Below, piece by piece: positions 215 to 35,107 of a DNA stretch of 36,732 bases (within the stretch, counting starts at the first letter, position 1; the number at the start of each line of letters is the position of its first letter). The notes beneath the pieces are model-generated. The model was not told the origin of the DNA. It did not search any database and saw only the letters and a program-made list of their open reading frames with translations. The position numbers were made by a program, and so were the translations under genes. This DNA comes from a virus. Where the stretch lies: IMG/VR virus record IMGVR_UViG_3300030943_001110, positions 1 to 36,732 of that record; one strand, written 5' to 3'.

Positions 215-755
215 ACAGTGGGTGTTTTAAGAAAGGGCAACATTGGCGAACTCCAAAAAATCACTGGAATAAAGATTGGCTTATTAAAAAATACTTTGAT
301 GAAAAGATAGTATTCCTGATTTAGCAAAATTATGCGGATGCACTGATAGCAATATTTCTTATTGGATGAAGAAGCATAAAATAAAAGGCAGGAATATTTC
401 AGATGCAAGAAAAATAAAGACATGGGGAACATTAGGCAAACTTAATGGTATGTATGGTCGTACGAAATCAAAAAATCCGAACTGGAAAGGTGGCGTAAGT
501 CCTGAACGACAGCAGTTTTATTCATCAGAAATTTGGAAAAAGCTGGCTATTGATGTTCGGAAAAGAGATAACTATTCGTGCGTAAGATGTGGCGTTAAAA
601 AAGATGGTAATGAATCACTACATATCCACCACCTAAGAAGTTTTGCTATAAAAAAATATAGACTGCAAAAAAGCAATCTAATCCTTTTATGTAAAAAATG
701 TCACAATTGGGTTCATTCAAATAAAAATATAAAAAAGGAATTTATAATTGAATAA
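211..755 (+). CDS. HNH homing-type endonuclease, frameshifted near its N-terminus
   Basis: Predicted HNH nuclease that nicks or cuts DNA, typical of free-standing phage endonucleases. The intact C-terminal part (ATG 366 onward, 129 residues) has a CVRCG zinc pair, an HIHHL core, a conserved Asn in KSNLILLC and a second CKKCH pair: the complete HNH/zinc-ribbon pattern. Upstream, ATG 211 opens a frame (MNSGCFKKGQHWRTP...) that stops at 322-324. Adding one A to the A run at 302-305 joins it to the second frame and gives a 181-residue protein whose middle (PDLAKLCGCTDSNISYWMKK) is a helix-turn-helix common in front of HNH domains. The ATG overlaps the preceding stop. This is either a one-base deletion or sequencing error, or a truly broken gene; a shorter product from 366 retains the nuclease core. 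Confidence 0.85.
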
Positions 756-1754
756 TTTAAATGAAAGATTAAATACGGTGGAGTGTGGAGATGCTATTCA
801 GTTTCTCAAAACCATTCCAGATGAATGTCTGGATTCGGTAATCACAAGTCCACCGTATTGGTAAGGCAGTTACGAGATTATGGCTGGTCAGGACAATGGG
901 GATTAGAACCTACGTATCAACAATACTTAGATCATTTGATAGAGTTTATGGTTGAGGTCAAACGTGCATTGAAACCCGAAGGAACTATATGGATAAATTT
1001 GGGCGATACTTATTCTACTCAATCTGGTTCTATGGGATCTGGGAAGTGGACTGATCCAAAAAATCCAATTGCGAGCAATACCACATTTACGCAATCATCC
1101 CCCGAAATGCAGAAAAAATGTCTCATGCTTATCCCTCAACGCTTTGCAATTCGATGTATTGATGAACTTGATTTAATTTTACGCAACGATATAATTTGGG
1201 CTAAAAGAAATGGAATGCCAGAAAGCGTAACGGATAGATTTTCAAAGAAACATGAATTTTTCTTTTTCTTTGCAAAGCAAGAGAAATATTATTTTGATTT
1301 AGATGCAATAAGAGATAAACAGAAAGAAATATCAATAAAACGATCTATGAGTATTAACCATCTTGAACAAAGAGAAGATTTTGGTTCAAAAAGTTTTTCT
1401 ATAAGTAGTGTAGCGCAAAACTCTTACTATAAAAAATTTAGAGAGAATTACAGTAAAGGGATATTACAGGGTAAAAATCCAGGAGATGTTTCTGATTTTT
1501 GGGATATAACCACTAAAGCGAACTCGGCAGAACACTACGCCGCTTTTAACAGCGAACTTATAGATAAGCCGATAGTATCGGGCAGTCCAAAGGGTGGTAT
1601 AATTTGTGATCCTTTCTGTGGAACAGGAACTACGCTTTTCAGATCATACGAACTTGGCAGGAACTTCATAGGCAATGATGGCAAGAAAGAATATGTAGAT
1701 GATGCAAATAAATTATGGCAAGAAATTAGATCACAGGAGAGACTTTTTCAATGA
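748..1754 (+). CDS. Site-specific DNA methyltransferase (N4-cytosine/N6-adenine type), frameshifted after motif IV
   Basis: S-adenosylmethionine-dependent DNA methylase of the permuted beta class: catalytic motif IV (TSPPYW) comes first and the cofactor motif I (DPFCGTGTT) lies near the C-terminus, with the recognition region between. The start is a TTG at 748 with AAAGGAA upstream; a TAA at 745-747 excludes anything earlier in that frame. The frame breaks directly after TSPPYW, where TAA at 862-864 follows. The rest (QLRDYG...GLEPTYQQYL...) continues in another frame, open from 825. Family members usually have one residue between the W and LRDYG, so five extra bases near 862-869 would explain the break; a one-base change is also possible. 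Start and end overlap its neighbours. No restriction enzyme gene is visible beside it, so it may be a solitary protective methylase, or inactive. Confidence 0.85.
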
Positions 1755-11591: not shown

Positions 11592-12175
11592 TATGCACCT
11601 GCTACTGCTGTTGTATTGGTAGTAGTTGTGTTTGCTTTCTCGGCGGCTTTCATTGCCCTATTGTGCCAGCCCTGCTGAATAATAATTGTTTGTTTGGCTA
11701 TCAAACCAACAAGTTCTTTGTCATAATCATTTTCAAACGGCATTTCGGCTACAACGGTATTGATGATATCTTCTTCCTCTTCCTTGGTTATAATATCTCC
11801 AAGTTCGAGTTTTGCGTTGGAAATCTCAGTACCTATACTAAAGAGTTCCGGAAGTATAGGAACAAGAACCATTAAATCGCCCGCTTGAAATCCATTACCC
11901 AAAGCGTTTATTCCTGAATAGATTATTTCGGCAAGAGTTCCGTAAAGTTTTTTAATGTTCTCTACGCCGTATTTGTTAATTTCGGTCATTTCGACCTCCT
12001 TTAAATTGGTTGTTTCGTTTTGTTTATTATTTAATGGGAGCAAATCAGGGAATGGAAACGGAGTTTGATTTACCCTCATTACTTCTTCGGTCTGTTGAAT
12101 ATCGCTATCAACCAATTCAATATTGGTGTTAGGTTTATCATTATTAACTTCTTGTCGTTCTTTGCCATCTTGCAT
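11591..12175 (-). CDS. Unassigned protein in the lysis region, with a possible second internal start
   Basis: A 194-residue acidic protein. I choose ATG 12175 (MQDGKERQEV) because GGAGG lies eight bases upstream and the ATG overlaps the preceding stop (TGATG); the in-frame ATG at 12190 would overlap that Shine-Dalgarno itself. The first 60 residues look disordered. A second ATG at 11989 (MTEINKYGVENIKKL) has an excellent AAAGGAGG site and starts the folded-looking part, of 132 residues, with a hydrophobic stretch (GDLMVLVPILPELFSIG). Long and short forms may both be made. The tail is rich in Thr/Asn/Ala. Function unknown; the position before the holin suggests a lysis-related or holin-regulating role as inference only. 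Confidence 0.7.
   Translation of the reverse strand: MQDGKERQEVNNDKPNTNIELVDSDIQQTEEVMRVNQTPFPFPDLLPLNNKQNETTNLKEVEMTEINKYGVENIKKLYGTLAEIIYSGINALGNGFQAGDLMVLVPILPELFSIGTEISNAKLELGDIITKEEEEDIINTVVAEMPFENDYDKELVGLIAKQTIIIQQGWHNRAMKAAEKANTTTTNTTAVAGA
11995..12002 (-). promoter_or_regulatory. Internal ribosome binding site for a short form
   Basis: On the minus strand AAAGGAGG lies five bases before the in-frame ATG at 11989-11987, as good as any start site in the window. It suggests independent translation of the C-terminal 132 residues of the surrounding gene. Confidence 0.6.
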
Positions 12176-12606
12176 CAACGGTACCTCCATATTGCGTAAT
12201 CTAATTCGTTAATGTATTTATAATTATATATAATGTCGTCGCTTTCTTCATAATAAATATGTACTTTGTAATCTTTAAATGGTGGAACTTTATAAACTTT
12301 TATTTTACATTTAAACAGTTTATCTGTCTCTCCTTTTGCCTGTTCTGCCATTCTATCCCACTGCGAATCAAGCGTAAATCCGGTATGTTTATTTACCTGA
12401 ACACGCTTTTTAAATTCTAAACTATCAAACGATGGATATACTTTCCAGTTAGGATTAATAGGAACATCTCCACCCCAATATTTCTCCACATAAACTGTAT
12501 CACGAATGATTACTGGTTTTTGTGTATTTACAGCAAGCGTGCATCCGGAAATTAGCAGCCCGATTACGCCTAATAGAAATACTATATTTATTTTTACATG
12601 TTTCAT
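12175..12606 (-). CDS. Predicted lipoprotein, possible outer-membrane spanin
   Basis: A 143-residue protein with a basic N-terminus, a hydrophobic core and a lipobox (LISGC, Cys22), so it should be lipidated and anchored in the envelope after signal peptidase II cleavage. The mature part is basic and aromatic (VEKYWGGDVPINPNW..., KVPPFKDYKVHIYYEE), with no coiled coil visible. It shares a TGATG overlap with the next gene. In Gram-negative phages a lipoprotein in the lysis region is often the outer-membrane spanin, but this one is larger than classical Rz1. No acidic lipoprotein-export signal follows the Cys. AGGAG lies 11 bases before its ATG, just after a hairpin. Confidence 0.7.
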   Translation of the reverse strand: MKHVKINIVFLLGVIGLLISGCTLAVNTQKPVIIRDTVYVEKYWGGDVPINPNWKVYPSFDSLEFKKRVQVNKHTGFTLDSQWDRMAEQAKGETDKLFKCKIKVYKVPPFKDYKVHIYYEESDDIIYNYKYINELDYAIWRYR

Positions 12607-12727: not shown

Positions 12728-12952
12728 TTATTCCTTATGTGGTTTAAGTTCCTTCTTATCCTCAGAAGGTTTTTTAATATTTTTCTTTTTCCATTCTTTC
12801 CAATATTCTAATCTTTTTTCAAAAATGATTTTCACCATTTCCAATTCAGGTATAGCTACCTTCTCTCCAAACTCTTCTGTCAAAATTATGTCGTCAAGTT
12901 TTGATAGATGGTCTTCTATAGTTTTTATTCTGTTATTGGAATAGTCGCACAT
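12728..12952 (-). CDS. Small charged helical protein
   Basis: A 74-residue, mostly helical protein (KTIEDHLSKLDDIILTEEFG ... MVKIIFEKRLEYWKEWKKKN) with a Lys/Glu-rich tail. There is no membrane span or signal peptide. The ATG overlaps the preceding stop (TAATG) and follows AGAGGGAAAC. It lies among small membrane proteins of the lysis region. Family unknown. Confidence 0.65.
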   Translation of the reverse strand: MCDYSNNRIKTIEDHLSKLDDIILTEEFGEKVAIPELEMVKIIFEKRLEYWKEWKKKNIKKPSEDKKELKPHKE

Positions 12953-13221
12953 TAGTTTCCCTCTAAAATAAATACACTATCAATTATCATTTGTATATTA
13001 CCAGTATCATTGTATCCCCAATGAACAATAGCATGTGTTATTTCCTTTGTAAGGAACTCCTTACTCTTGGAATATTGTATCATTGATATTTTTTTCTCTT
13101 TCGGTTTTTCTTGCGAAATAGTTGCATCGGTAAAACAAAATAATAAAAATATCGTTAGAAATATCGCTATTATTAAACCGGCAATGACCATCAATATTTT
13201 AGACGTTAATGTGTTTTTCAT
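12952..13221 (-). CDS. Small membrane-anchored protein, possible inner-membrane spanin
   Basis: An 89-residue protein with one long hydrophobic segment (about 8-31, ILMVIAGLIIAIFLTIFLLF) and a polar, mostly helical remainder of about 55 residues. The segment may stay as an N-terminal anchor, or be cut after DATIS, which would again put Gln at +1 (QEKPKEKK). N-terminal anchor plus periplasmic helix resembles an inner-membrane spanin, and a lipoprotein gene lies two genes on. That pairing is inference. The start has AGGA eight bases upstream. Confidence 0.65.
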   Translation of the reverse strand: MKNTLTSKILMVIAGLIIAIFLTIFLLFCFTDATISQEKPKEKKISMIQYSKSKEFLTKEITHAIVHWGYNDTGNIQMIIDSVFILEGN

Positions 13222-13596: not shown

Positions 13597-13689
13597 TTAA
13601 AACGGTTTTTTAGTTGGTGTAAATGCTGCCGAATATCGAGAAATTCCTTTTGTCACTCTAAAGTTTTGAATCTGAAATTTACCGAAACA
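13597..13689 (-). other. In-frame continuation of the LamG domain beyond TGA
   Basis: Thirty sense codons after the TGA encode CFGKFQIQNFRVTKG... and end PTKKPF before TAA. This matches the usual end of LamG domains in phage fibres (F-x-G-x-I-x-x-F-R-V/I-T-K-G, A-R-Y-T-x-x-F-T-P). The TAA sits directly at the Shine-Dalgarno of the next gene, the spacing expected of an intact gene in this operon, while the TGA leaves an unusual gap. Confidence 0.75.
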
Positions 13690-14322
13690 TCATGCTTTAT
13701 ATGATCCAATTTGTAATTTATAGTCTGTGCCATAATATATCGCTCCGGCACTATTGTCTGTCCAAACCTCTACACCATTAGTATATCCTTTCCAAGCTCC
13801 CGAAACTCTAGTCATTGCAATATGATACCACGTACTTCCGGACAAAGTGAATGTTTTATTAGGCACTAAATTCCACGAACTACCATCTGTACTACCATAA
13901 CTATACATACCGGAAGTTGCAGCAGTGAATAAACCTACGCCAATATAATCACCAACATAATTTATATAGAATACCCCACCCGCAGCGGAAGTTGAAGCAT
14001 AGAAATAAATCCAAAACTCAATGGTCATATCTGATGAACCGATATTCAGTTGTGCGTTATTGCTCGGAACAGATAAGCTAGTGGTAGAACCGTCAAAATA
14101 TCCACTATATAAACCCATAACAGGATTATTTGCAGTGGTAGTTTTTGTGGTTCCAGCATTCGTTATAACGTTACTATACTGGCTTACATCATATATCGTA
14201 CTTTGTGGAGAATTATTAAATCTTACTAACATAGAAGTATATCTATCGGGCAATGATTGTTGAAACTTAAACTGCCCAAATAAAGAAGAAACCGTCAATA
14301 ATAATATTATTAGTTTTTTCAT
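13690..14322 (-). CDS. Secreted LamG/concanavalin-like protein, cut short by an in-frame TGA
   Basis: A 210-residue protein with a signal peptide (MKKLIILLLTVSSLFG, then Gln17) and a LamG-like jelly-roll domain (YSGYFDGSTTSLSVP, MTIEFWIYF, WYHIAMTR, GYTNGVEVW), a fold used for sugar binding in fibres. I start it at ATG 14322, five bases after GGAG; upstream ATGs lie before or inside that site. TGA at 13690-13692 comes right after LQIGSYKA, where the last strands of the domain should follow. They do follow in the same frame: 30 more codons including QIQNFRVTKGISRYSAAF, then TAA at 13597. The product is therefore either truncated by mutation or extended by readthrough. It follows a long fibre-like gene with which its start is coupled. 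Confidence 0.8.
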   Translation of the reverse strand: MKKLIILLLTVSSLFGQFKFQQSLPDRYTSMLVRFNNSPQSTIYDVSQYSNVITNAGTTKTTTANNPVMGLYSGYFDGSTTSLSVPSNNAQLNIGSSDMTIEFWIYFYASTSAAGGVFYINYVGDYIGVGLFTAATSGMYSYGSTDGSSWNLVPNKTFTLSGSTWYHIAMTRVSGAWKGYTNGVEVWTDNSAGAIYYGTDYKLQIGSYKA

Positions 14323-14324
14323 CA

Positions 14325-16643
14325 TTACTCCAGAATGAACCAAAATGAAAGTGTTAAATTACGTGCATCAGGTGTTGTGTCTGCTCTGTAAACTCTTACG
14401 TCAATACTGTTTCCATAAGATACTTTATAATTAGAGGTATTTATATAATAAGAACTACTATACATCCAATTTCCCGAACCCAATGTCATATCTATCCCTT
14501 TAGCGCCAATTAGATTCTCGGCATTTTTCCACGGATAAATTGTGGTGCCGGCAGTTACGTCAATAACTCTACTAACCGCTCCCCACATTACCAAATAAGC
14601 ATCACTCATTCCCCACTTAAACTCTGCGCCGGTATGCAAATAAATTAAACTATCAAAGAATCCTCCCGATGTTGGATAATTACTCCAATATTCGGCTAAA
14701 CCAAAATCACATTTTACGACCTTTTCGGGGGTTCCGAGCCAAAAAGAATCAGCCACAGCGTAATAAGCAGGGCCAGAAAGAATAAGCGTATCATTTGTTG
14801 CTCCTGTTTTAACCAAAGTTATTAAGGCAAATCTATAAACGCTATCAACATCTCTAAATCTTATCGGTAGTCCTGCTTTGTTATTTGTGCTATGACCTAC
14901 ATAAATTAAAGTATCACTTAATCTTGTCACAGAATAAAGCGTCCAAGGCGAATAACTTCCCCCGCTTCCCGCTGTTCCATTTGCGGCATTTGTTAATCTG
15001 CCGTCAGCGCCAATAGTTATATTCGCATTTGTATAACTTCCCGGAGTTGCTGTATTCTTTTTCGCAATCGTTGAAACCGTATCTGTCTTTCCATTTACAA
15101 ACGCCTTTGTTGCTATTGTATTTGTTGTATCTACTGATCCTGCGTTAGCAAGAACGTATGCCTTTGTAGCCACTTTGTTGGTATCTACCCAATGAATGAG
15201 AGTGGAGGTATCTGCCTGATTAAATTTCAACGCAAGCTGACTATTGGTATAAGTCCTTTGGTTACTCGTATCAGTCGCAAAACTTGATATTGTTTTGTAA
15301 GCACCCAGTCTCCACTGTCTTGCCAAACTCGAGGTAGTATCAGAGTATGGGAGTTTTAACGCTAACAAATTTGTGGTATAAGTTCTTTGTCCGGTAGTAT
15401 CAACTCCGTACTTTGTTACATGTGTCCACCTATTAGCTGTATCTGATGCAGTGAGTTTCAAAGCTAACTGATTATTAGTATAAGTTCTGGCATTTGTAGT
15501 GTCTGTCGCAAAACTGCTTATAGTTTTATATGCTCCCAACTCCCAAGGCATTACAACACTACCAGAATCAATCTTCGTATTTATTCTATTTGATAAAGAT
15601 GTTGTGTCAAATGTAGACGAATGCGCAAGAACATATTTTTGAGTTGCCAATGTACTCGACGTATCACCAAACGTTAAATAATCTCCTATAGGTTGTTTCC
15701 CATTTACAGAGTTTCTTAATGTTTGTAATGAGTCTTGACCTCCTAAAATATTTATAAAAGAATGTTGATGGTTTAATCTTGAGAAATTATCTATACTATC
15801 TTTAAAAGTTTGTGGAGTAATATAAGCGCTATTGCTGTCAGATTTACTTATTTTTAAGAGCAATAAATTAGTTGTATAATTTCTTTGCCCTAATGTGTCC
15901 ACTCCATATTTCCAAACAGGAACTCTGTTAGCTTTTACCGTATCTAATCTAAACTGTGTAGCAAGTAAAGAAGAATCTAACTCCACATCTTCTAATTGCA
16001 TGGCTTCTGTAAGAGAATCAACATAAAACTTTGAAGCTATACCCGGTTTTGAGGAGGTATCAATTGACATAACGTTTTGCAAATCCTCCGCCCATTGTTG
16101 AACGCTACCAACCATTTTCCAGACATAACCACTGGTTCCGTTTTCTATTTTGTTATTATATTTTAAATCGGAATATGTTCTGATATTAACTGAATCAGAT
16201 GGAACAAGAAAAGTTCCTTTTAGTTGATACTTATTATCAGAATAAATTCTTGCGTTATTCGTATCAGAATAATAAACCGATTTATCGAGCTTAGTATTTA
16301 TCAATGTCCACTTACCGGAAGTATCAGAAGCAATTAAATAACTTCCTTTTGCCTGATATAATCCATCGGAATATATTCTTGCATTTAAGGTATCAGAAAA
16401 ATATCTCCAAAATGGAACTCTGTTATTTTTTATTGTGTCAACTCTGAATTGTGTGGCAATCAAACTTGTGTCCGATATACCGGTCGGTACATGACTTATA
16501 GAAGAATCAACATAAGCTTTTGAAGCTACACCGGGCTTTGAGGTTGTGTCCACTCTGCCACCTGCCCTATGAATTTGTGATATACCTATGTTATAATATA
16601 ACACAAATAAAATAAAAGTCAAGAAAATTCTTTTGGTTTTCAT
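14325..16643 (-). CDS. Long repetitive tail-fibre-like protein with signal peptide
   Basis: A 772-residue protein beginning with a predicted signal peptide (MKTKRIFLTFILFVLYYNIGIS, then Gln23 in the cleaved form). The body is repetitive and Ser/Thr/Asp/Asn-rich: several KAYVDS units, paired YSD-N-ARIYSD repeats near 80-150, two GQRxYTTNLLxLK units, and two copies of GAYKTISSFATDT about 80 residues apart. This composition fits slender trimeric fibres. The last 200 residues (from about 565) are less repetitive and could be a receptor-binding head. The ATG overlaps the previous stop (TAATG). A signal peptide on a tail fibre is not normal, because tails assemble in the cytoplasm; it may be exported, or the segment may serve as a hydrophobic attachment. 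Confidence 0.8.
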   Translation of the reverse strand: MKTKRIFLTFILFVLYYNIGISQIHRAGGRVDTTSKPGVASKAYVDSSISHVPTGISDTSLIATQFRVDTIKNNRVPFWRYFSDTLNARIYSDGLYQAKGSYLIASDTSGKWTLINTKLDKSVYYSDTNNARIYSDNKYQLKGTFLVPSDSVNIRTYSDLKYNNKIENGTSGYVWKMVGSVQQWAEDLQNVMSIDTSSKPGIASKFYVDSLTEAMQLEDVELDSSLLATQFRLDTVKANRVPVWKYGVDTLGQRNYTTNLLLLKISKSDSNSAYITPQTFKDSIDNFSRLNHQHSFINILGGQDSLQTLRNSVNGKQPIGDYLTFGDTSSTLATQKYVLAHSSTFDTTSLSNRINTKIDSGSVVMPWELGAYKTISSFATDTTNARTYTNNQLALKLTASDTANRWTHVTKYGVDTTGQRTYTTNLLALKLPYSDTTSSLARQWRLGAYKTISSFATDTSNQRTYTNSQLALKFNQADTSTLIHWVDTNKVATKAYVLANAGSVDTTNTIATKAFVNGKTDTVSTIAKKNTATPGSYTNANITIGADGRLTNAANGTAGSGGSYSPWTLYSVTRLSDTLIYVGHSTNNKAGLPIRFRDVDSVYRFALITLVKTGATNDTLILSGPAYYAVADSFWLGTPEKVVKCDFGLAEYWSNYPTSGGFFDSLIYLHTGAEFKWGMSDAYLVMWGAVSRVIDVTAGTTIYPWKNAENLIGAKGIDMTLGSGNWMYSSSYYINTSNYKVSYGNSIDVRVYRADTTPDARNLTLSFWFILE

Positions 16644-17182
16644 TATTTTTTTCCCGCTAATTTTACTCTTATCGTATTAGTACCCACAGAAGTTCCCATA
16701 TGATATAAAACGTTGGTATTACTAACATAAAAAGTTGCCGCATCTCCTGCTCTCAATTCTATACCGTTCCCTGTTGTCAGTCCTACCGACCCAACATAAA
16801 CCGTGCCAGAATAATCATAGGAAACCGAGACATCAACCTGCCTACATGGATAACTCGGCAAAGGATTTGAGGTAACAGCAACATCTCTTGAAAACGTAAT
16901 ACTTGTATCCATCGGTAATATTTGTTGTAGTACTAAAGTATTATAATGCTGAGCGGATGTATCTAAATTTACATCGCCTATACTAATATCTCCGGCAATT
17001 CTAACAGGTAAAAACGTCCCTCTGGCGCTGTCAACAACAATTACAGTGTCTCTACCCGATACCGGATTCTTCCCAATGTAACCGATTATAACGGCAGTCC
17101 TATTCCACGGATAAGTGGTCTGTGCCTGTAACCATATCGTGGATAATAACGATATGGTTAATAAAAATAATATTCTTTTCAT
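16643..17182 (-). CDS. Secreted small beta-rich protein in the fibre block
   Basis: A 179-residue protein with a clear signal peptide (MKRILFLLTISLLSTIWLQA, then Gln21). The mature part is Val/Thr/Ser/Gly-rich, with alternating strand patterns (DTVIVVDSARGTFLPVRIAG, YDYSGTVYVGSVGLTTGNGI) suggesting a small beta-sandwich, and only one cysteine. It contains a TYPWNRT start reminiscent of the IYPWKNAENL segment in the neighbouring long fibre-like protein. The start follows AGGGAAACAT. It may be a partner or cap of the adjacent secreted fibre-like proteins. Family unknown. Confidence 0.7.
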   Translation of the reverse strand: MKRILFLLTISLLSTIWLQAQTTYPWNRTAVIIGYIGKNPVSGRDTVIVVDSARGTFLPVRIAGDISIGDVNLDTSAQHYNTLVLQQILPMDTSITFSRDVAVTSNPLPSYPCRQVDVSVSYDYSGTVYVGSVGLTTGNGIELRAGDAATFYVSNTNVLYHMGTSVGTNTIRVKLAGKK

Positions 17183-17190
17183 ATGTTTCC

Positions 17191-17484
17191 CTATTTACCT
17201 CTTCTATTTTCACGTTCGGTTTTTAATATTACCACATCTTCTTTCAATTCGTCTTGCGTTGCTTTATAAGCATCATTTTCTTTTTTTAATTCATCCAACT
17301 TTGTATTCATACTGTCAATTTTGTCAAACAACTTCTGTAACTTTAGGTCAATTTCCTTTAGTTCTTTCATAACCATTTCCTTGTCTGCTTTATTGTTGTT
17401 TAGTTTCCAGTATGCTCCAACACCAGTGATTATAAACACAAGTGTAGCAACAATAGCCGAAACCCATTCTCCTGTAATTAACAT
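17191..17484 (-). CDS. Membrane-anchored coiled-coil protein (holin- or spanin-like)
   Basis: A 97-residue protein with one N-terminal membrane span (about 5-25, GEWVSAIVATLVFIITGVGA) and a long charged coiled coil (about 34-90, KEMVMKELKEIDLKLQKLFD...KKENDAYKA). The layout matches inner-membrane spanins (anchor plus periplasmic coiled coil) and also certain small holin-associated proteins. It lies inside the fibre block, not beside the lysozyme. AGGAG precedes the ATG at a good distance. Which role it has cannot be decided from sequence alone. Confidence 0.7.
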   Translation of the reverse strand: MLITGEWVSAIVATLVFIITGVGAYWKLNNNKADKEMVMKELKEIDLKLQKLFDKIDSMNTKLDELKKENDAYKATQDELKEDVVILKTERENRRGK

Positions 17485-17501
17485 ATTTATCTCCTAAATT
17501 A

Positions 17502-20500
17502 TTATCTATTCAATATTGGCGGTTCTACCCATTCCGAGCCTCTAACCATATCAACCAATATCCCACCTTTGAAATATAAAACATCATATTGTATTTGCAT
17601 ACCACTACCACACCCACTACACTTCCTAATATTACCGACCAAAGTCATGGTGTAAGTTATTCCGCTATATTCTGTCCCATGATAATTAACTCTAAATTTA
17701 TTATGGGATGTAACGCCGGCGGTAGTTGTATCGCCTGCCGGTCTATAACCATAAACACCGGTGTTGCTGACGATATTACCAGAAGCATTTAAAGCGTCTC
17801 TTACAGACAATACACCATCCCTCCCGAACAATATCGATGGCTTTAAATATGAAACAGTGATAGTGTCGTTAACTTGCTCTAAAGTAGAATTTTGTATTGA
17901 TGTAGTCCCATTAAATACTGGTATTTTCCCACTTGTGCCACTACCAGAAATAAAATCTCCAAAATCCGCTTTATTATTAAAAATATTCCAATCCGTTGAA
18001 CTTAAATAACCATCTTGTGATGAACTAGCAAGTTGAATCATTACTTCGTTTGTGCCACCATCAATGGTTATGGGTAATTTCGTTTTCACTCCTAAGTAAT
18101 CATCAGCGCCAACCAAATTTAGTCCAAGTCCACTATTATAAAGTAATCTTACCGTGCTATCTGTTTTTTTTAATGGGTTACTGAAATATAATGGCGTTTG
18201 ATACCAATGCGTATGGTAGGCATCGTGTAATCTGTAATATTTATTAGTTATTAAAGAATCACCATAATACATTGGATAAGCCCCCTGTGCAATCAAACTT
18301 GGAACCAAACTAAAGTGTGAACCGCCCGATGTAGCCGAATCCCTTAAACCCATTCCGTTTCCGATATATCCCAAAGTCTTTGTGCCAGTCCAATTAGAAT
18401 AGTTTTTTACATAAGTTGAAGTAATTCCAGTCCCTGTTAAATCTCCGGAACCACCACTACCAGTTCCAACGCTATCTGTTCCCCACATTAAAACTCCACC
18501 TGATCCTACTTTTAATACTTTGCCAACATAATCACCATAATATCCGGAGAAATGGTCATCACTTATTATATTATGTCTGCGATCATGTAATCTCCAGTAA
18601 TTTTTAGTAACCATTGTATCCCCATTCCAAAAAGGCGCACCTGATGTTTCAGAGAAAAGACTTCCTCTTATTGTATGACCATCATACCATTTAGTCAAAT
18701 ATCCTGCCGTTGTATCTGCTATCTTATAAACCTGTCCACCACTGCCACCGGCTGTTTGCAAATCATTTCCCCATTCAAGCGCCGTGCCACCGCTATTCAT
18801 TTTTGGGATTTGACCGGCAGAACCAAGCGAAGTTAAGCCCTTTAAAGTTAGGGTTGTATCGTTGGTTTTATATAAAGGAAGAACCGCGCTTTTAATTTCT
18901 CTGCCGGAAACTCCTGTTCCTCCGGTAGCGCTTATTGTTAAATAAGTTGAGTTGTCTGTTATACTGATTCCTGCTCCAGCCGTAACTCCTTTGAATGGAA
19001 GATTTACTCCAGACTTTGTTTTTGTCCATTCTAAATTTCCACCAACAGTTGAATAAGTATTTGCTTCCCCACTTCCAACGCTTCCCAATAAATCATTTGC
19101 TCTATGCCATGCTCTGGTTGCAAGAGTATCAAAAGAAGAGCCATTCCACCACATAGGATAAGAGCCATCGAAAAATTTGCTTGAGGTGATATATCTGTTT
19201 CCACCTACCCATTTTGTGAGATAATTTGCTGTTGAATCCGAACTATTATAAACATTTCCTCCTCCGGTTCCACCCGATCCAAGTTGATCTGTTCCCCAGT
19301 CTAATTGTACTAAATAAGGATTTGAACCGGAAATCGACCATGCCTTTAAATACTGACCTGTAGAAGGATAACTAACTGGAAGTCTATATTTTATATTATA
19401 TGATTGAGAATAAGGTTCAATTACGACATATTTTGTATATCCGGTATGATTTTCATAAAGAGTTAAACCATCGGCTAAACTTGTTATCATTCCGTTGGCT
19501 TGTAAAGTTCCGCCTATTTCAGCTTTATAATTTGTTTTTGTAATTGCATCTATGGTAATTGAATCGGCAGCCGAACTTTGCCTTATCTTACTATCAGCAA
19601 AATTAATTGATGAACCCTCATACATTTGTATTGAGCCTATCATTATTTTATAAATTCTTCCCCAGACAAGCGCAGGGTTTGCATAAAAAGACTTATATTT
19701 TATTTTATAATAATAGAAAGAAGATATACTTTTTTTATTAGTGAAAGAATTTCTTATCGCAGGTGTCATAGAATATTTACAACCACAGTTAACAAAGAAT
19801 CCAGTTGTATCAGTGCTACCCCAAGCAGAATAACTTGTGCTGTCCAATACAACCCAAGTTGTGCTATCATTACTTCCATAAAAAGTCCAAGAAGTAGGAT
19901 AAGCTGTCAAATAATATTTATATGCCGTACCCTCTCCGGAACAATTATACGCTGTCCCATTATCACTCCACCATCCGGCTCCTATAATATACTTTGATAT
20001 TGATTTCTGAGTAGAGAACCTATAAATTATCCAGCAATTATTTGAATCTGCATCATCCCATGTTACCTGATTAAAATCCGTATAATTAGTAGGATTATAA
20101 ATATTTCCAGTAGTATAGCTTAGCGCTGTTTCATTAAACGCTTTATAAGCTCCTGAATTATCATAAAGACTTGAGGCATGACCACTCGGTAGATAATTTG
20201 TAGTCATTATCGGTATAGCCGCCGATTGAGCTGAAGTAGTAAATTTTGCCAAGTAGTTATCAGTGCCTTCACCAAGATAACCATAAGCAGATTTATTATT
20301 TAAATAATTGAATAACGAATCATAAGTCAAAAGATTATATTTTTTAGTCATATCTTTTTTAAACCATAGTGCGTTTCTGCCGCCATCATACCACATAGTT
20401 TGATTGAACGCATTATTGGTATCTCTCCTGCTGTGAGTGAACTGGAAAGATGGTCCGGAAACTGGAGATAACTGAGGATAAATTAGAGTATCAGCCTTAT

Positions 20501-20603
20501 TCACATTATTCACCGTATCTCTGTGAATAGTAATTATCGTGTCATACTGTCCGTAACATATTGCCGATGTCAGCAAAATGATCAATAATAATTTACGATA
20601 CAT
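17502..20603 (-). CDS. Long fibre-like protein with signal peptide and discoidin (F5/8 type C)-like domain
   Basis: A 1033-residue protein. It starts with a signal peptide (MYRKLLLIILLTSAICYG, then Gln19). Residues about 140-330 look like a discoidin/galactose-binding domain: YNPTNYTDFNQVTW near its start, WIIYRFSTQKSISKYIIG, then the typical YPTSWTFYGSNDSTTWVVLD and a closing YYYKIKYKS...IGSIQMYEG. This fold binds carbohydrates. The remainder is Gly/Ser/Thr-rich with repeating elements (NYLTKW/GYLTKW, YYRLHDAYH/YWRLHDRRH, FWNGDT/WWNGSS), as in trimeric fibres. A CSGCG motif lies near the C-terminus. It overlaps the gene before it by 11 bases. Probable receptor binding; whether it is in the virion or exported is open. 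Confidence 0.8.
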   Translation of the reverse strand: MYRKLLLIILLTSAICYGQYDTIITIHRDTVNNVNKADTLIYPQLSPVSGPSFQFTHSRRDTNNAFNQTMWYDGGRNALWFKKDMTKKYNLLTYDSLFNYLNNKSAYGYLGEGTDNYLAKFTTSAQSAAIPIMTTNYLPSGHASSLYDNSGAYKAFNETALSYTTGNIYNPTNYTDFNQVTWDDADSNNCWIIYRFSTQKSISKYIIGAGWWSDNGTAYNCSGEGTAYKYYLTAYPTSWTFYGSNDSTTWVVLDSTSYSAWGSTDTTGFFVNCGCKYSMTPAIRNSFTNKKSISSFYYYKIKYKSFYANPALVWGRIYKIMIGSIQMYEGSSINFADSKIRQSSAADSITIDAITKTNYKAEIGGTLQANGMITSLADGLTLYENHTGYTKYVVIEPYSQSYNIKYRLPVSYPSTGQYLKAWSISGSNPYLVQLDWGTDQLGSGGTGGGNVYNSSDSTANYLTKWVGGNRYITSSKFFDGSYPMWWNGSSFDTLATRAWHRANDLLGSVGSGEANTYSTVGGNLEWTKTKSGVNLPFKGVTAGAGISITDNSTYLTISATGGTGVSGREIKSAVLPLYKTNDTTLTLKGLTSLGSAGQIPKMNSGGTALEWGNDLQTAGGSGGQVYKIADTTAGYLTKWYDGHTIRGSLFSETSGAPFWNGDTMVTKNYWRLHDRRHNIISDDHFSGYYGDYVGKVLKVGSGGVLMWGTDSVGTGSGGSGDLTGTGITSTYVKNYSNWTGTKTLGYIGNGMGLRDSATSGGSHFSLVPSLIAQGAYPMYYGDSLITNKYYRLHDAYHTHWYQTPLYFSNPLKKTDSTVRLLYNSGLGLNLVGADDYLGVKTKLPITIDGGTNEVMIQLASSSQDGYLSSTDWNIFNNKADFGDFISGSGTSGKIPVFNGTTSIQNSTLEQVNDTITVSYLKPSILFGRDGVLSVRDALNASGNIVSNTGVYGYRPAGDTTTAGVTSHNKFRVNYHGTEYSGITYTMTLVGNIRKCSGCGSGMQIQYDVLYFKGGILVDMVRGSEWVEPPILNR

Positions 20604-21267
20604 TTATTAGCATCTCCAAGAATATAATTAGTTTGTTATCAGTATAGGCAGTTTGTAAATCCGGCAAAGAATCTTCACCGTTATTCAAAACTACTTTACC
20701 TAAAAAAAGAGATTGCTTTACATTTTGATAGAATAAATTTTTCTCGGTTACTCTTAATCTTAACTTGAAATCACTATCGTACTGTAAAGCAAACTCTAAG
20801 CTATTGCCTTTGTTTACTGTCATTGTACCTGTTAAAGTATCAACATACTTTTGATATAAAGTATCGCCATCACTAACAGTCAAATAACAGGTTATTTTAT
20901 TTATCTTTGTAAAATCAATTGGTAGTTTTATGCTGTCCGCAATATTGCCATGCTGCTGTGCTAATGTAATCCATCCGTTATTAAACAGATCCACCACGTG
21001 TGATACTCTTAAAGAGTAATTGTTATTACCCGCAGTAGTGGTCGTGTTGTTGGTTACAGAACTTGAACTATTGACAACTATGTTACCGGCAGAATTAGTT
21101 ATGCTTTTCAACTGTCCTTTATATTTAGCATACAGCCCTTTGCCATCTACATATAATAGAGAACCTTCTTCAATATCTTTCGGATTAGGCATACCCATCA
21201 ATGCTCTGGTAGTGCTTTTATCGTCAATTTGAACCTGCATTTTTTTTAGATTATTATTCTGAAACAT
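20593..21267 (-). CDS. Fibre adaptor or small tail structural protein
   Basis: A 224-residue protein without signal peptide. The N-terminal part (ALMGMPNPKDIEEGSLLYVD, GLYAKYKGQLKSI) resembles the short beta modules that open phage fibre or adaptor proteins. A Ser/Thr/Asn linker (about 68-82) follows, then a beta-rich C-terminal domain. It overlaps the nozzle-like gene by 14 bases and the long fibre-like gene by 11. AAGGAGAAAT precedes ATG 21267. Lying between nozzle and fibre genes, it probably joins the two, in contrast to its signal-peptide-bearing neighbours. Confidence 0.65.
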   Translation of the reverse strand: MFQNNNLKKMQVQIDDKSTTRALMGMPNPKDIEEGSLLYVDGKGLYAKYKGQLKSITNSAGNIVVNSSSSVTNNTTTTAGNNNYSLRVSHVVDLFNNGWITLAQQHGNIADSIKLPIDFTKINKITCYLTVSDGDTLYQKYVDTLTGTMTVNKGNSLEFALQYDSDFKLRLRVTEKNLFYQNVKQSLFLGKVVLNNGEDSLPDLQTAYTDNKLIIFLEMLINVS

Positions 21268-24200
21268 ATTTCTCCTTTCTGGTTAATACGTTCAGTCCAA
21301 AGGCTCTTAGCTTCTTTACTGTTGTTCCGTTACCGCTGGTATTATCTCCTGCTCCGGTATTCGCACCCATGTCAACTCTCATGCTTATATCATTGATTGC
21401 ATTGCCGATATTGACAGGTCGAACACAAATCAAATTTTCCTGATTCGTGCAATTACCAAACATCTTAATGGTCTGTCTTGCAGTTGCGGAGTCGTTCACA
21501 AATAATTTAATATTAAATTTCCAATCATTCACCGCATCTTTTAAAGTTTCAGTCAATACCTCATAAACCTTTAACATCGGAGAATATTGAGTGATTATCT
21601 TGCTATCTACGTATAGCTCGTTATATGCTGCACCTGCCATAGCAAAGACAGATAAATCGTCAAAGTAAACTGCTCCTGCATCTGCAAAAATTAAACCGCC
21701 ATAACTATCGATTGTGAAATCGGAAATAGTCATAGAGTTAAATTTCTTCTTTCTCCAGGGAACCAGCACTTTCTCTTTATCTTTCATCAAAGCCATAGAC
21801 TGGTCCAAACTCTGCATATTTTTAAAATCTGCTATGTAAATAACTCCAGAAATATAAAGCCAATATTCTTCTGTTTGTCCGTTCCAACATGCAAACATTC
21901 CAGTTTTGTCTGTAATTGTTTGTTTATAATAATTATCCCATTGCCAGTTTATTTGTATAACATTCATTGATCCTGATGATAAACCCTGATAAAGCCAGAT
22001 ACCATTATCATCTGCAAAGATAACTCCATATCTCGAAGTAACAACACTTCTTGGGTATTTACACCCAACATAATTACCGCCCTGTTTAACCGATATGGTT
22101 TCTACGCCGGTTTTTATGCTAAAGAAACTATTATCTCTTAGCACTATAAGTTCATCGTCTTTACTTGCAAGTGCTGTGATATGACCAGGGCTATCCTGTC
22201 CTATCATCTCAAAACCAATCGATGAATCGAAGTCATAACTGAACACATCAAGGTTATTTGTTCCGGTTGAGCCTACTCTCGAAAATCTTAACACTTCAAC
22301 CTTATCATCCGTATCTGCTATCCAAGATATATTATTGTGGATAGTAGCCGCACCATATTTAGCTGCTATACCTACGCTTGGCTCATATTTCAAAGTAGCA
22401 AGCAACTGTGGTATATCTTTCAAGTCTGATAATTCTGCCTGTAACGCATCGGATATTTCCGAATCATCTGAAAGATTAGCGTAATTAGTTCCATAAATAT
22501 TATTTATATAAGTCTCATACTGAAAGGTATTATCTACTACCGACCAACCCAAAGTATTTGATAATGGATTTTTTGTTTTATCATCAGAAGTATTTACGTC
22601 ATCTTTGTTTGTATCATTAACATAAATTCTTTTTAAAAGATAAAACGGTTTTAACCAACTACTTGTAGTGTCTTCGCTATCTGTATTCGGAGAATAACGC
22701 CCCCAAATATTATATGCAGTTATTCTTCTGTTCGTAAGAGCAGGATCGACAGTTATAGTTGCTTTAATAGAATCGAATCCGGTAGGTACTTGAAGTTTGG
22801 TAATAACTGAATCAATCGTTGCACCGGTAGTTCCATTGTAAAAGAAATAAGTTTTTGTATCAAGGAAATGATTTGGAGGTGTATCTTCATTTTCTACGTC
22901 TAAAGTTGTCTGATATAAAGCAGAAACAGTAAATGCAGGAAATTCAGATACATTACTTGTGATTTTCCATTCTGAACCGGTCGCATATTCGCCAACTGCT
23001 TTTGCACCAATTATTAAAGACGGATAAAGTATGGCATTTGAATTGTCTTTGGAATCGTCAGCGTTAGCTTCAATTAACTGTTTAACTTCAAACTCATCCC
23101 AAGTGAACGAACCCCTATAGTTATCGTCTATCCCACCTGTATTGCCCGCACCACCACGAGAAATCGCTACCTGTAAATTAGTTGCAATTTTATTTCTCTC
23201 AACAAATCCGTTCTCAACAAATCCGTCAATTTTTACCGCTAATTTATTTGTAAACCACGAAGGAACTGCACTGAAATAGTCTAACACATTGCTCCAGTAT
23301 TGACTTTCAATAAATAGTATTGTAAGTTTTAATGTGTCGCCAACATAAAAATCAAAATAACACGAATAAGGCGTAAAGGTTAATGATCCGGCAGACGTAG
23401 TTCCAAATAATAAACTTTTCCCCACGTTCTTTACAGTTATTAAGGCATTTATATTTGAATCCGGCAAACCCCCAGACAGTGTTGCTGGCACTATCTCTTG
23501 ATAACCATCAAATGTTGCGGTTAAAGCAATTTCAATATCTGTTTCTGGAGATATTTTACCTTCGTTTTTAGCGAAGTCCATATCGAGTGTTCCGGTAAAC
23601 TCCGGTATTCTCTTTTCCAATATCACATTTCTTTGTGCAGATATTCCGGAGTTATCAAGCAAATAAACCGAATCAGTTTTATTGTAAAAATAATGTTTAT
23701 TGATATATCCCATCCATAAAGGCTGAACTTCTTTCCCCAATCCTATCATCATCTTTGACATAATATTGTTTACAATAAAAGCGGAGTATTCAGAGGAAGG
23801 ATTAAAGATAGAATCAAAATCCGCTGTTTCAAGCATAGATAATCGAGAACGGTAAAAGGTAATTGTGCCAGTAGGGGTAAATTCCGGAGTAACACGTACC
23901 GACATATCGTCTGTAAAAATAACTGTTCTATAGTTTGATCCTGATTTTACTATCCATCCATCAAGAATGTTCGGTATGAGAAAGCCGTCACCAGTTAAAA
24001 TTTCACTTGCCAACGCTGTGTGATCAATTGTGAACTCTATTTCGTTTACGTGAGCGCTAACACTTGGCGTTGCGGTTACTGTCGCATCAAAAGACAATAA
24101 AAGGTTATACCATCTATCAACTGTCGAATCAGATAGTTTTGCATCATTTACTATCATGTCTCGAATAATCCATTTATACTTAACGTCTGCTGTTGCCAAA

Positions 24201-24499
24201 TATGCAACTGCCAGAAGTAAATCAGACTGCAAGGGAATGCCTAAAGAATAATTATGGATATGCTTTATGGCGTGAGGATCTCCAGTCGGATTACTTAATA
24301 TTCCGGTTAAAGATGCAGCATAAACAGAATCCGCAGCATATCCATTTGTCTTTACCAGTCCACCCTTTACAGAATCCACATCAAAATTCACAATATCGGT
24401 AGCCGAATCATTAGGATTGCCATTAGGAAAAACCTCTGTGCTTGGTATCCACCCCTTTGAAAATGAATTAAACTTTAATGTGTTTTTTTGGAATAACAT
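21254..24499 (-). CDS. Large tail-hub/nozzle protein (tail tubular B-like)
   Basis: A 1081-residue structural protein. It begins FNSFSKGWIPSTEVFPNGNP and GGLVKTNGYAAD, an opening typical of phage nozzle proteins, which describe themselves as a ring of beta-propeller blades. In the second half (about 735-930) lie propeller-like segments: HNNISWIADTDDKVEVLRFS, GHITALASKDDELIVLRDNS, YPRSVVTSRYGVIFADDNGI and EEYWLYISGVIYIADF. These match the known layout of short-tail nozzle proteins (T7 gp12 and P22 gp10 functional class). It directly follows the connector gene, as gp12 follows gp11. The ATG overlaps the previous stop (TAATG). Function is well supported by order and pattern, though not by any single motif. 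Confidence 0.8.
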   Translation of the reverse strand: MLFQKNTLKFNSFSKGWIPSTEVFPNGNPNDSATDIVNFDVDSVKGGLVKTNGYAADSVYAASLTGILSNPTGDPHAIKHIHNYSLGIPLQSDLLLAVAYLATADVKYKWIIRDMIVNDAKLSDSTVDRWYNLLLSFDATVTATPSVSAHVNEIEFTIDHTALASEILTGDGFLIPNILDGWIVKSGSNYRTVIFTDDMSVRVTPEFTPTGTITFYRSRLSMLETADFDSIFNPSSEYSAFIVNNIMSKMMIGLGKEVQPLWMGYINKHYFYNKTDSVYLLDNSGISAQRNVILEKRIPEFTGTLDMDFAKNEGKISPETDIEIALTATFDGYQEIVPATLSGGLPDSNINALITVKNVGKSLLFGTTSAGSLTFTPYSCYFDFYVGDTLKLTILFIESQYWSNVLDYFSAVPSWFTNKLAVKIDGFVENGFVERNKIATNLQVAISRGGAGNTGGIDDNYRGSFTWDEFEVKQLIEANADDSKDNSNAILYPSLIIGAKAVGEYATGSEWKITSNVSEFPAFTVSALYQTTLDVENEDTPPNHFLDTKTYFFYNGTTGATIDSVITKLQVPTGFDSIKATITVDPALTNRRITAYNIWGRYSPNTDSEDTTSSWLKPFYLLKRIYVNDTNKDDVNTSDDKTKNPLSNTLGWSVVDNTFQYETYINNIYGTNYANLSDDSEISDALQAELSDLKDIPQLLATLKYEPSVGIAAKYGAATIHNNISWIADTDDKVEVLRFSRVGSTGTNNLDVFSYDFDSSIGFEMIGQDSPGHITALASKDDELIVLRDNSFFSIKTGVETISVKQGGNYVGCKYPRSVVTSRYGVIFADDNGIWLYQGLSSGSMNVIQINWQWDNYYKQTITDKTGMFACWNGQTEEYWLYISGVIYIADFKNMQSLDQSMALMKDKEKVLVPWRKKKFNSMTISDFTIDSYGGLIFADAGAVYFDDLSVFAMAGAAYNELYVDSKIITQYSPMLKVYEVLTETLKDAVNDWKFNIKLFVNDSATARQTIKMFGNCTNQENLICVRPVNIGNAINDISMRVDMGANTGAGDNTSGNGTTVKKLRAFGLNVLTRKEKYVSE

Positions 24500-34651: not shown

Positions 34652-35107
34652 CTATGGTTTTTTACAAAGCCATCCAAATTTATAGGTGCCGCCTAATGCT
34701 GCGTTACCTGCCAATAAGAATCTCAAACGATATCCATAGTTCCACCCGGTAACCCCTGTAGTTGTTAGCCAATTTGCGCTTAATACTAAATTACCAAAAC
34801 CGGTTGTAGTTCCATTATTAGTTGTGCCTTTAAGTGAATCAACCAAAGCCCATGAACCCTTAGCGGTATTTGCCAACGAAGGATCCATAGAAATTCTATC
34901 AACATAAACAGCGACACTATCACTGGCGGCGATCCAATATTTAATCGAATCATAGCCAACATGCGAATAACTTCCGGAAACATTACCCACGCTGGTAATG
35001 GTCACAGTGTCCATATCCAGATAAGTTCCGGATTTTACATAAGTTCTCTGTGCAAAAGCCATAACAGCCATCAGCATCAGAATAAAAATCATTATTTTTT
35101 TCATCAT
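34652..35107 (-). CDS. Small secreted protein upstream of the terminase
   Basis: A 151-residue protein with a strong signal peptide (MMKKIMIFILMLMAVMAFA, then Gln20) and a mature beta-rich domain (TYVKSGTYLDMDTVTITSVG, WALVDSLKGTTNNGTT, WNYGYRLRFLLAGNAALGGT). A single Cys is near the C-terminus. It stands apart from the other secreted genes, between the candidate small terminase and the large terminase. The start follows AAAAGGGTAA. The mature part resembles short fibre or surface beta domains. Function unknown; superinfection exclusion at the envelope is one possibility (inference). Confidence 0.75.
   Translation of the reverse strand: MMKKIMIFILMLMAVMAFAQRTYVKSGTYLDMDTVTITSVGNVSGSYSHVGYDSIKYWIAASDSVAVYVDRISMDPSLANTAKGSWALVDSLKGTTNNGTTTGFGNLVLSANWLTTTGVTGWNYGYRLRFLLAGNAALGGTYKFGWLCKKP

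Follow-up and report, generated by a model that had tools for sequence, protein, structure and literature searches.

We consider a cluster of fibre-like genes in the viral record IMGVR_UViG_3300030943_001110, whose whole stretch of 36,732 bases is called the window here. Four proteins of the cluster, and a fifth encoded outside it, begin with a predicted Sec signal peptide in which the cut is followed by glutamine (a "Q-rule" leader). The best explanation of the whole, which we judge slightly likelier to be true than false, is that these are receptor-binding fibres of a Bacteroidota tailed phage that would be exported by Sec, trimmed, and joined to the tail outside the cytoplasm. Export of the fibres is well supported by the sequences. 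We infer the cleavage of the leaders, the waiting in the periplasm, the transfer of this route to the window phage, and the timing and place of attachment, including attachment after lysis.

Predicted leaders in the window

The five leader proteins and their predicted signal peptides are listed below with the basis for each call.

17502..20603, minus strand: 1033-residue fibre-like protein with a Q-rule Sec leader (PHROG 17517 match, leader call)
20550..20603, minus strand: predicted signal peptide of the 1033-residue protein, MYRKLLLIILLTSAICYG then Q (predictor, shuffle test)
16643..17182, minus strand: 179-residue protein with a Q-rule Sec leader and a body without family match (leader call)
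17123..17182, minus strand: predicted signal peptide of the 179-residue protein, MKRILFLLTISLLSTIWLQA then Q (predictor, shuffle test)
14325..16643, minus strand: 772-residue repetitive stalk protein with a Q-rule Sec leader (leader call, inspection)
16578..16643, minus strand: predicted signal peptide of the 772-residue protein, MKTKRIFLTFILFVLYYNIGIS then Q (predictor, shuffle test)
13690..14322, minus strand: 210-residue protein with a LamG-like (concanavalin-type) lectin domain and a Q-rule Sec leader (PF13385, leader call)
14275..14322, minus strand: predicted signal peptide of the 210-residue protein, MKKLIILLLTVSSLFG then Q (predictor, shuffle test)
34652..35107, minus strand: 151-residue protein with a Q-rule Sec leader, outside the cluster and beside the terminase gene (leader call)
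35051..35107, minus strand: predicted signal peptide of the 151-residue protein, MMKKIMIFILMLMAVMAFA then Q (predictor, shuffle test)

The leaders are scored with a crude, purpose-made predictor that combines hydropathy with site rules. By these rules, all five have n-, h- and c-regions with a small residue at position -1, and all five have Gln at position +1 of the predicted cut. The four leaders of the cluster share a basic n-region and an 11-residue core with a mean hydropathy of 2.6-3.0, followed by a small residue and then Gln; the predicted cut sites are CYG|Q (1033 residues), LQA|Q (179 residues), GIS|Q (772 residues) and LFG|Q (210 residues), and that of the 151-residue protein is AFA|Q. 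The next question is whether such N-termini could arise by chance. When the residues after each hydrophobic core are permuted (the shuffle test), a properly placed Q-rule site is obtained with a chance of 0.03-0.09 per protein and a joint chance of about 10^-6.6 for the five leaders, so chance hydrophobic N-termini are ruled out.

An earlier note, made from the letters of this DNA, had read type I signal peptides on the 1033-, 179-, 772- and 210-residue proteins, and hydropathy, cut site and Gln all agree with that reading. Its list holds for these four cluster proteins and is incomplete, because the 151-residue protein is also leadered; its gene is flanked by a 314-residue gene and the terminase, a long way from the fibre cluster. 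The note had also stated that leaders are not general among the structural genes, and this agrees with the predictor, which scores none on the capsid, portal, terminase or other presumed structural proteins of the window, nor on the 224-residue neighbour and the nozzle-like 1081-residue protein that the note had called leaderless. The N-terminus of an 89-residue protein (12952-13221) is hydrophobic over a long stretch that ends in TIS|Q; it may be a signal anchor or a sixth Q-rule leader.

Gln follows the cut in about 71% of signal peptidase I (SPI) substrates on average across Bacteroidota (PMC5837995). Since it does so in every one of the five window leaders, the sequence points to a Bacteroidota host. 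Neither a host link nor a close relative of the window phage was found; searches by way of the 1081-residue, terminase, portal and capsid proteins return no relative or remote terminases only. The Bacteroidota promoter pattern TTTG-N-TANNTTTG has a frequency in the window that is not above chance.

Fibre character of the leader proteins

The LamG-like fold that had been noticed in the 210-residue protein is confirmed by a match to PF13385 (E 8e-10). A discoidin-like domain, also proposed earlier, is not recovered in the 1033-residue protein, whose sole family match is to PHROG 17517 'tail protein' over residues 123-278 (E 2e-6). A short stalk module of this protein (about residues 804-933, ...SSTDWNxFNNK) is common to proteins in 25 IMG/VR loci. 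Similarity to fibre modules is thus a property of the 1033-residue protein and, through LamG, in part of the 210-residue protein. The 772-residue protein is a repetitive stalk by inspection, and no family match was found for the 772-, 179- and 151-residue proteins. AlphaFold without an alignment gives a predicted local distance difference test (pLDDT) score of about 30 for residues 100-345 of the 1033-residue protein and for the mature 179-residue protein.

Fibres are normally leaderless, as the earlier note had assumed: among the module-sharing viral fibres from loci with a complete start, 2 of 24 have a Q-rule leader, and a leader on a fibre with this stalk module is therefore the exception. 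The two are a 1261-residue protein of locus L008 (...SYS|QQ) and a 643-residue protein of locus L025 (...ATA|QV). The latter matches PHROG tail fibre families, and endolysin genes lie near both. A borderline call in a third locus (L026) is discounted for want of a Gln site. The L008 locus (L008:8735-16922), an uncultured viral contig, encodes two consecutive leader proteins, the 1261-residue one (...SYS|QQ) and one of 1409 residues (...ASA|RK) with fn3-like matches; a lipoprotein-like gene and then an endolysin gene lie downstream of the pair.

Leadered fibres in cultured Cellulophaga phages

The nearest system is found in cultured phages of Cellulophaga, where Q-rule fibre or spike genes occur in runs: gp091-095 of phi10:1, at least gp101-102 of phi19:1, gp53-55 of Nekkels, gp31-34 of Ingeline, gp085-087 of phi18:3, and gp084, 086 and 087 of phi13:2, with further runs in phi19:3 and phi46:3. 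Those with records examined fall into three families (Assiduviridae, Duneviridae and Pachyviridae). The Q-rule site is present in about 11 of 12 distinct Cellulophaga leaders. According to GenBank notes, gp091-094 of phi10:1, gp101-102 of phi19:1 and gp085-087 of phi18:3 are structural, tail or lyase proteins from experimental tandem mass spectrometry (MS/MS) proteomics, that is, leadered Cellulophaga fibres are recorded as virion proteins. Every fibre- or spike-like gene of the gp091-095 run of phi10:1 is leadered, so that a non-virion role would leave this phage without an obvious receptor-binding protein.

The leader itself is functional, to judge from its conservation. Seven phages have the same first 20 residues in their gp093-family proteins, and the leader has 8 synonymous and 0 replacement codon sites among them, against 72% replacements expected neutrally; judged by these codon counts, the gp093 leader is under purifying selection. 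The leader of the gp094 family has 4 silent and 5 replacement sites, the replacements being conservative, and its cut site A|Q is invariant. What follows the leader can be exchanged. The leader and stub of phi10:1 gp093 are kept while the body is swapped, with about 95% identity to Nekkels over residues 1-132 and 83% identity to phi18:3 over residues 1-118, and no alignment beyond either point; for the gp094 leader module the identity is about 90% over residues 1-42. Between phi10:1 and phi18:3 the DNA of the leader modules is 91-94% identical, while the terminases and portals are without similarity. A constant N-terminal part in front of exchangeable bodies has the look of a docking domain, and this one opens with a signal for export. 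Its partner may be another cassette protein rather than a tail protein specific to one family, since the phages that carry the module differ in their packaging and portal genes. The gp094-type leader protein is present twice in the phi19:3 cassette (L037:8339-9250 and L037:11638-12552).

Counterparts of the pectate-lyase body of phi10:1 gp093 (residues 117-774) occur in phi14:2 (g086, 44% identity) and phi17:2 (gp054, 49% identity); both of these proteins are leaderless and have a different N-terminal part in place of the leader and short stub. The earlier note had counted leaderless homologues against its proposal. Such homologues do exist for this body, but because a different N-terminal part replaces the leader and stub, the difference does not look like an annotation artefact, and leader and cytoplasmic N-terminus seem to be two ways of solving the problem. 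The leaderless g086 of phi14:2 is also recorded in the virion by MS/MS; evidently phages that share a host species can make the same spike in either way.

The trait is patchy among Bacteroidota phages, since a census of FCL-2, P12024S, B40-8, RAP44, P12002L and half of crAss001 found no leaders on large tail proteins. In Flavobacterium phage FCL-2, gp71 (147 residues, L050:45363-45806), which lies away from the tail genes, carries a Q-rule leader and then a fibre-like beginning, 'VGIATTTPTETLDVNG'.

A periplasmic glycosylation motif

The motif D(S/T)(A/I/L/V/M/T) is the site at which Bacteroidota attach glycans to non-cytoplasmic proteins (PMC8550257, PMC12871550), and it is glycosylated solely in such proteins (PMC12871550). 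The five leader proteins of the window contain 46 of these motifs against 11.3 expected from composition, an enrichment of about 4-fold (z 11). When 14 motifs of the form X(S/T)(A/I/L/V/M/T) are compared in these proteins, clear enrichment is seen for X = D alone. Repeats do not explain the sites of the 1033-residue protein, which stand in differing contexts. The capsid-side proteins of the window have 7 motifs against 10.6 expected, and 16 leaderless fibres with the same stalk module have 69 against 82. As these fibres are not enriched, stalk composition is rejected as a cause of the motif for fibres generally. In a small sample of Bacteroidota proteins, those with a Q-rule leader have 43 motifs against 26.6 expected, and leaderless ones have 12 against 18.5. 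This pattern backs export in the window phage and does not amount to a rule for leadered fibres generally. Over 131 residues, the 151-residue protein has four motifs of the D(S/T)-hydrophobic type.

Proposed route and alternative explanations

In the proposed route, the cluster would supply a tailed phage that infects Bacteroidota with its receptor-binding fibres. The fibres would be made as Sec precursors and exported across the inner membrane, SPI would cut before Gln, and the host glutaminyl cyclase would close this Gln to pyroglutamate. Folding would follow in the periplasm, in the window phage with probable O-glycosylation at the D(S/T)-hydrophobic sites. The fibres would then be held in the periplasm until lysis, when the released fibres would bind the tail by their mature N-terminal stubs, making the last step of virion assembly one that takes place outside the cytoplasm. 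No match to a C-terminal sorting domain of the type IX secretion system was found in the window leader proteins (NCBIfam, Pfam), and the proteins should for that reason stay periplasmic until lysis.

Several points weigh against this explanation. The virion role of the window proteins is argued by analogy with phi10:1, phi19:1 and phi18:3, because no close relative of the window phage was found, and the window and Cellulophaga leader proteins have no significant sequence similarity. The MS/MS lists of virions can include co-purified vesicle or periplasmic proteins. The passage of large trimeric fibres through Sec in an unfolded state, with folding in the periplasm, is a hypothetical step. The glycosylation motif is absent from the 210-residue protein, is mildly enriched in the leaderless 224-, 1081- and 200-residue proteins of the window, and is depleted (0.41-fold) in the Cellulophaga leader proteins.

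The clear export signals would also fit if the proteins were exported and never joined the virion, but coated or altered the infected envelope (masking or removing receptors, blocking superinfection) or acted as free lectins or depolymerases at lysis. Q-rule proteins of Porphyromonas gingivalis phages have been read as possible outer-membrane modifiers (PMC10367356), secreted proteins of cellular Bacteroidota (Ferruginibacter, Chryseobacterium) combine the stalk module with a Q-rule leader, and the Cellulophaga pectate lyases are filed as morons in PHROGs. Against such a role stand the MS/MS structural annotation in phi10:1, phi19:1 and phi18:3, and genes that are placed at tail-fibre positions and are the only obvious fibre candidates in phi10:1. 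The five window proteins are not lipoproteins and show no domain for export across the outer membrane, and without such a domain they are less likely to be displayed on the cell surface ahead of lysis; a lipobox Cys, as in an Llp-like superinfection-exclusion lipoprotein, is found in none of the five, and a separate 143-residue protein has one. We regard a purely non-virion role as rather unlikely. Of the three options offered by the earlier note, attachment to virions after lysis now has the most support, from the Cellulophaga MS/MS annotation, and surface coating and free fibres have less.

It is also conceivable, though improbable in our estimate, that the hydrophobic N-terminus does not serve export at all, and that the proteins fold in the cytoplasm with an N-terminal helix that fixes them to the tail hub or works on the membrane as the DNA enters. 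Tail fibres and spikes are usually cytoplasmic, fast folding of the trimer could outrun Sec, and virion MS/MS annotations alone do not establish leader cleavage. An anchor, however, needs neither a peptidase site nor Gln, and both are seen in all five window leaders and in about 11 of 12 Cellulophaga leaders; the leader has the form usual for SPI substrates, and motifs for periplasmic glycosylation are present in the window proteins. That the proteins are recently captured host secreted adhesins, with leaders left over and without a role in the phage, is very improbable. The short stalk module does occur in cellular secreted Bacteroidota proteins with Q-rule leaders, but by the codon counts purifying selection maintains the gp093-family leader in phages, and in the window phage leaders stand on five separate proteins whose bodies differ. 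As the stalk module is also present in these cellular Q-rule proteins, gene exchange with the surface proteins of hosts could be the origin of leader fibres. Cellular examples of module and leader, beside further secreted genes, are found in Chryseobacterium (L065:7638-11165, L067:7638-10038) and Ferruginibacter (L057:7026-9464).

Neighbouring genes

The late genes of the window are on the minus strand in the order terminase (PHROG 38), portal (PHROG 156), adaptor (with a weak SU10-adaptor match only), 1081-residue protein, 224-residue protein and the cluster, after which come a lysozyme and three further proteins of 244-1596 residues. The leader genes of the cluster sit among these late genes, downstream of the terminase, portal and presumed tail genes, adjoin the lysis genes and run in the same direction. 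The start codon of the 772-residue gene overlaps the stop of the 179-residue gene by 1 base. Other features are as follows.

21254..24499, minus strand: 1081-residue protein, no leader, no family match (predictor, family search)
20593..21267, minus strand: 224-residue tail protein, no leader, candidate docking partner (predictor; docking from position)
17191..17484, minus strand: 97-residue protein inside the cluster, one membrane helix then a coiled coil, no leader (predictor)
12175..12606, minus strand: 143-residue lipoprotein with a LISGC lipobox (predictor)

Its gene position makes the 224-residue protein a candidate docking partner for the fibres. The 97-residue protein is possibly holin- or spanin-like, and the 143-residue lipoprotein is possibly o-spanin-like or, alternatively, might be an outer-membrane partner of the fibres; this lipoprotein (12175-12606) has two O-glycosylation motifs. 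At the left end of the window (366-1754), genes for an HNH endonuclease and an N6/N4 DNA methylase lie on the opposite strand.

Comparison with known systems and implications

The Cellulophaga cassettes (phi10:1, phi19:1 and Nekkels of the Assiduviridae, phi18:3 and phi13:2 of the Pachyviridae, Ingeline of the Duneviridae, and phi19:3 and phi46:3) resemble the window in that Q-rule genes for fibres or spikes follow one another close to the tail and lysis genes. They differ in belonging to different phage families and in having neither enrichment of the O-glycosylation motif nor significant sequence similarity to the window. Ordinary Caudoviricetes fibres and tailspikes have the same genome position, repetitive stalks and lectin-like tips and, as in the Cellulophaga cassettes, a conserved N-terminus with swapped bodies; unlike the window fibres, they are leaderless. 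The coat proteins of filamentous phages are virion proteins with Sec leaders, but such particles are put together in the inner membrane and then extruded, whereas tailed phages package DNA in the cytoplasm and exit by lysis. The P. gingivalis phages (Nixviridae, PMC10367356) also encode Q-rule proteins, but these are described as five genes of unknown function rather than as fibres or virion proteins. Signal peptides go unmentioned in the paper on North Sea flavophages (PMC8776804), and no report of Sec leaders on tailed-phage fibres was found in the literature searched, outside of which lie preprints and most subscription journals. Phage Q-rule proteins are already known; the proposed fibre route to the virion by way of export is one of which we found no description.

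A broader statement, which we hold more tentatively and think somewhat likelier wrong than right, is that some Bacteroidota tailed phages finish their virions outside the cytoplasm, with Sec-exported fibres that are modified in the periplasm (pyroglutamate, possibly O-glycans) and join after lysis; the fibres would hence carry host-type modifications, and virions could take up fibres of other phages present in the cell or the lysate. The gains to the phage are speculative, and might include modification with protease resistance, spikes kept from heads until lysis, masking of receptors from inside the envelope, and sharing of fibres in the lysate. If the proposal is true, the final assembly step of a tailed phage is not cytoplasmic, which would change the understanding of fibre swapping, phenotypic mixing, host-range assays and the recombinant expression of Bacteroidota phage receptor-binding proteins. 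A recurrent feature of Cellulophaga phages, seemingly unremarked in the literature searched, would become directly testable.

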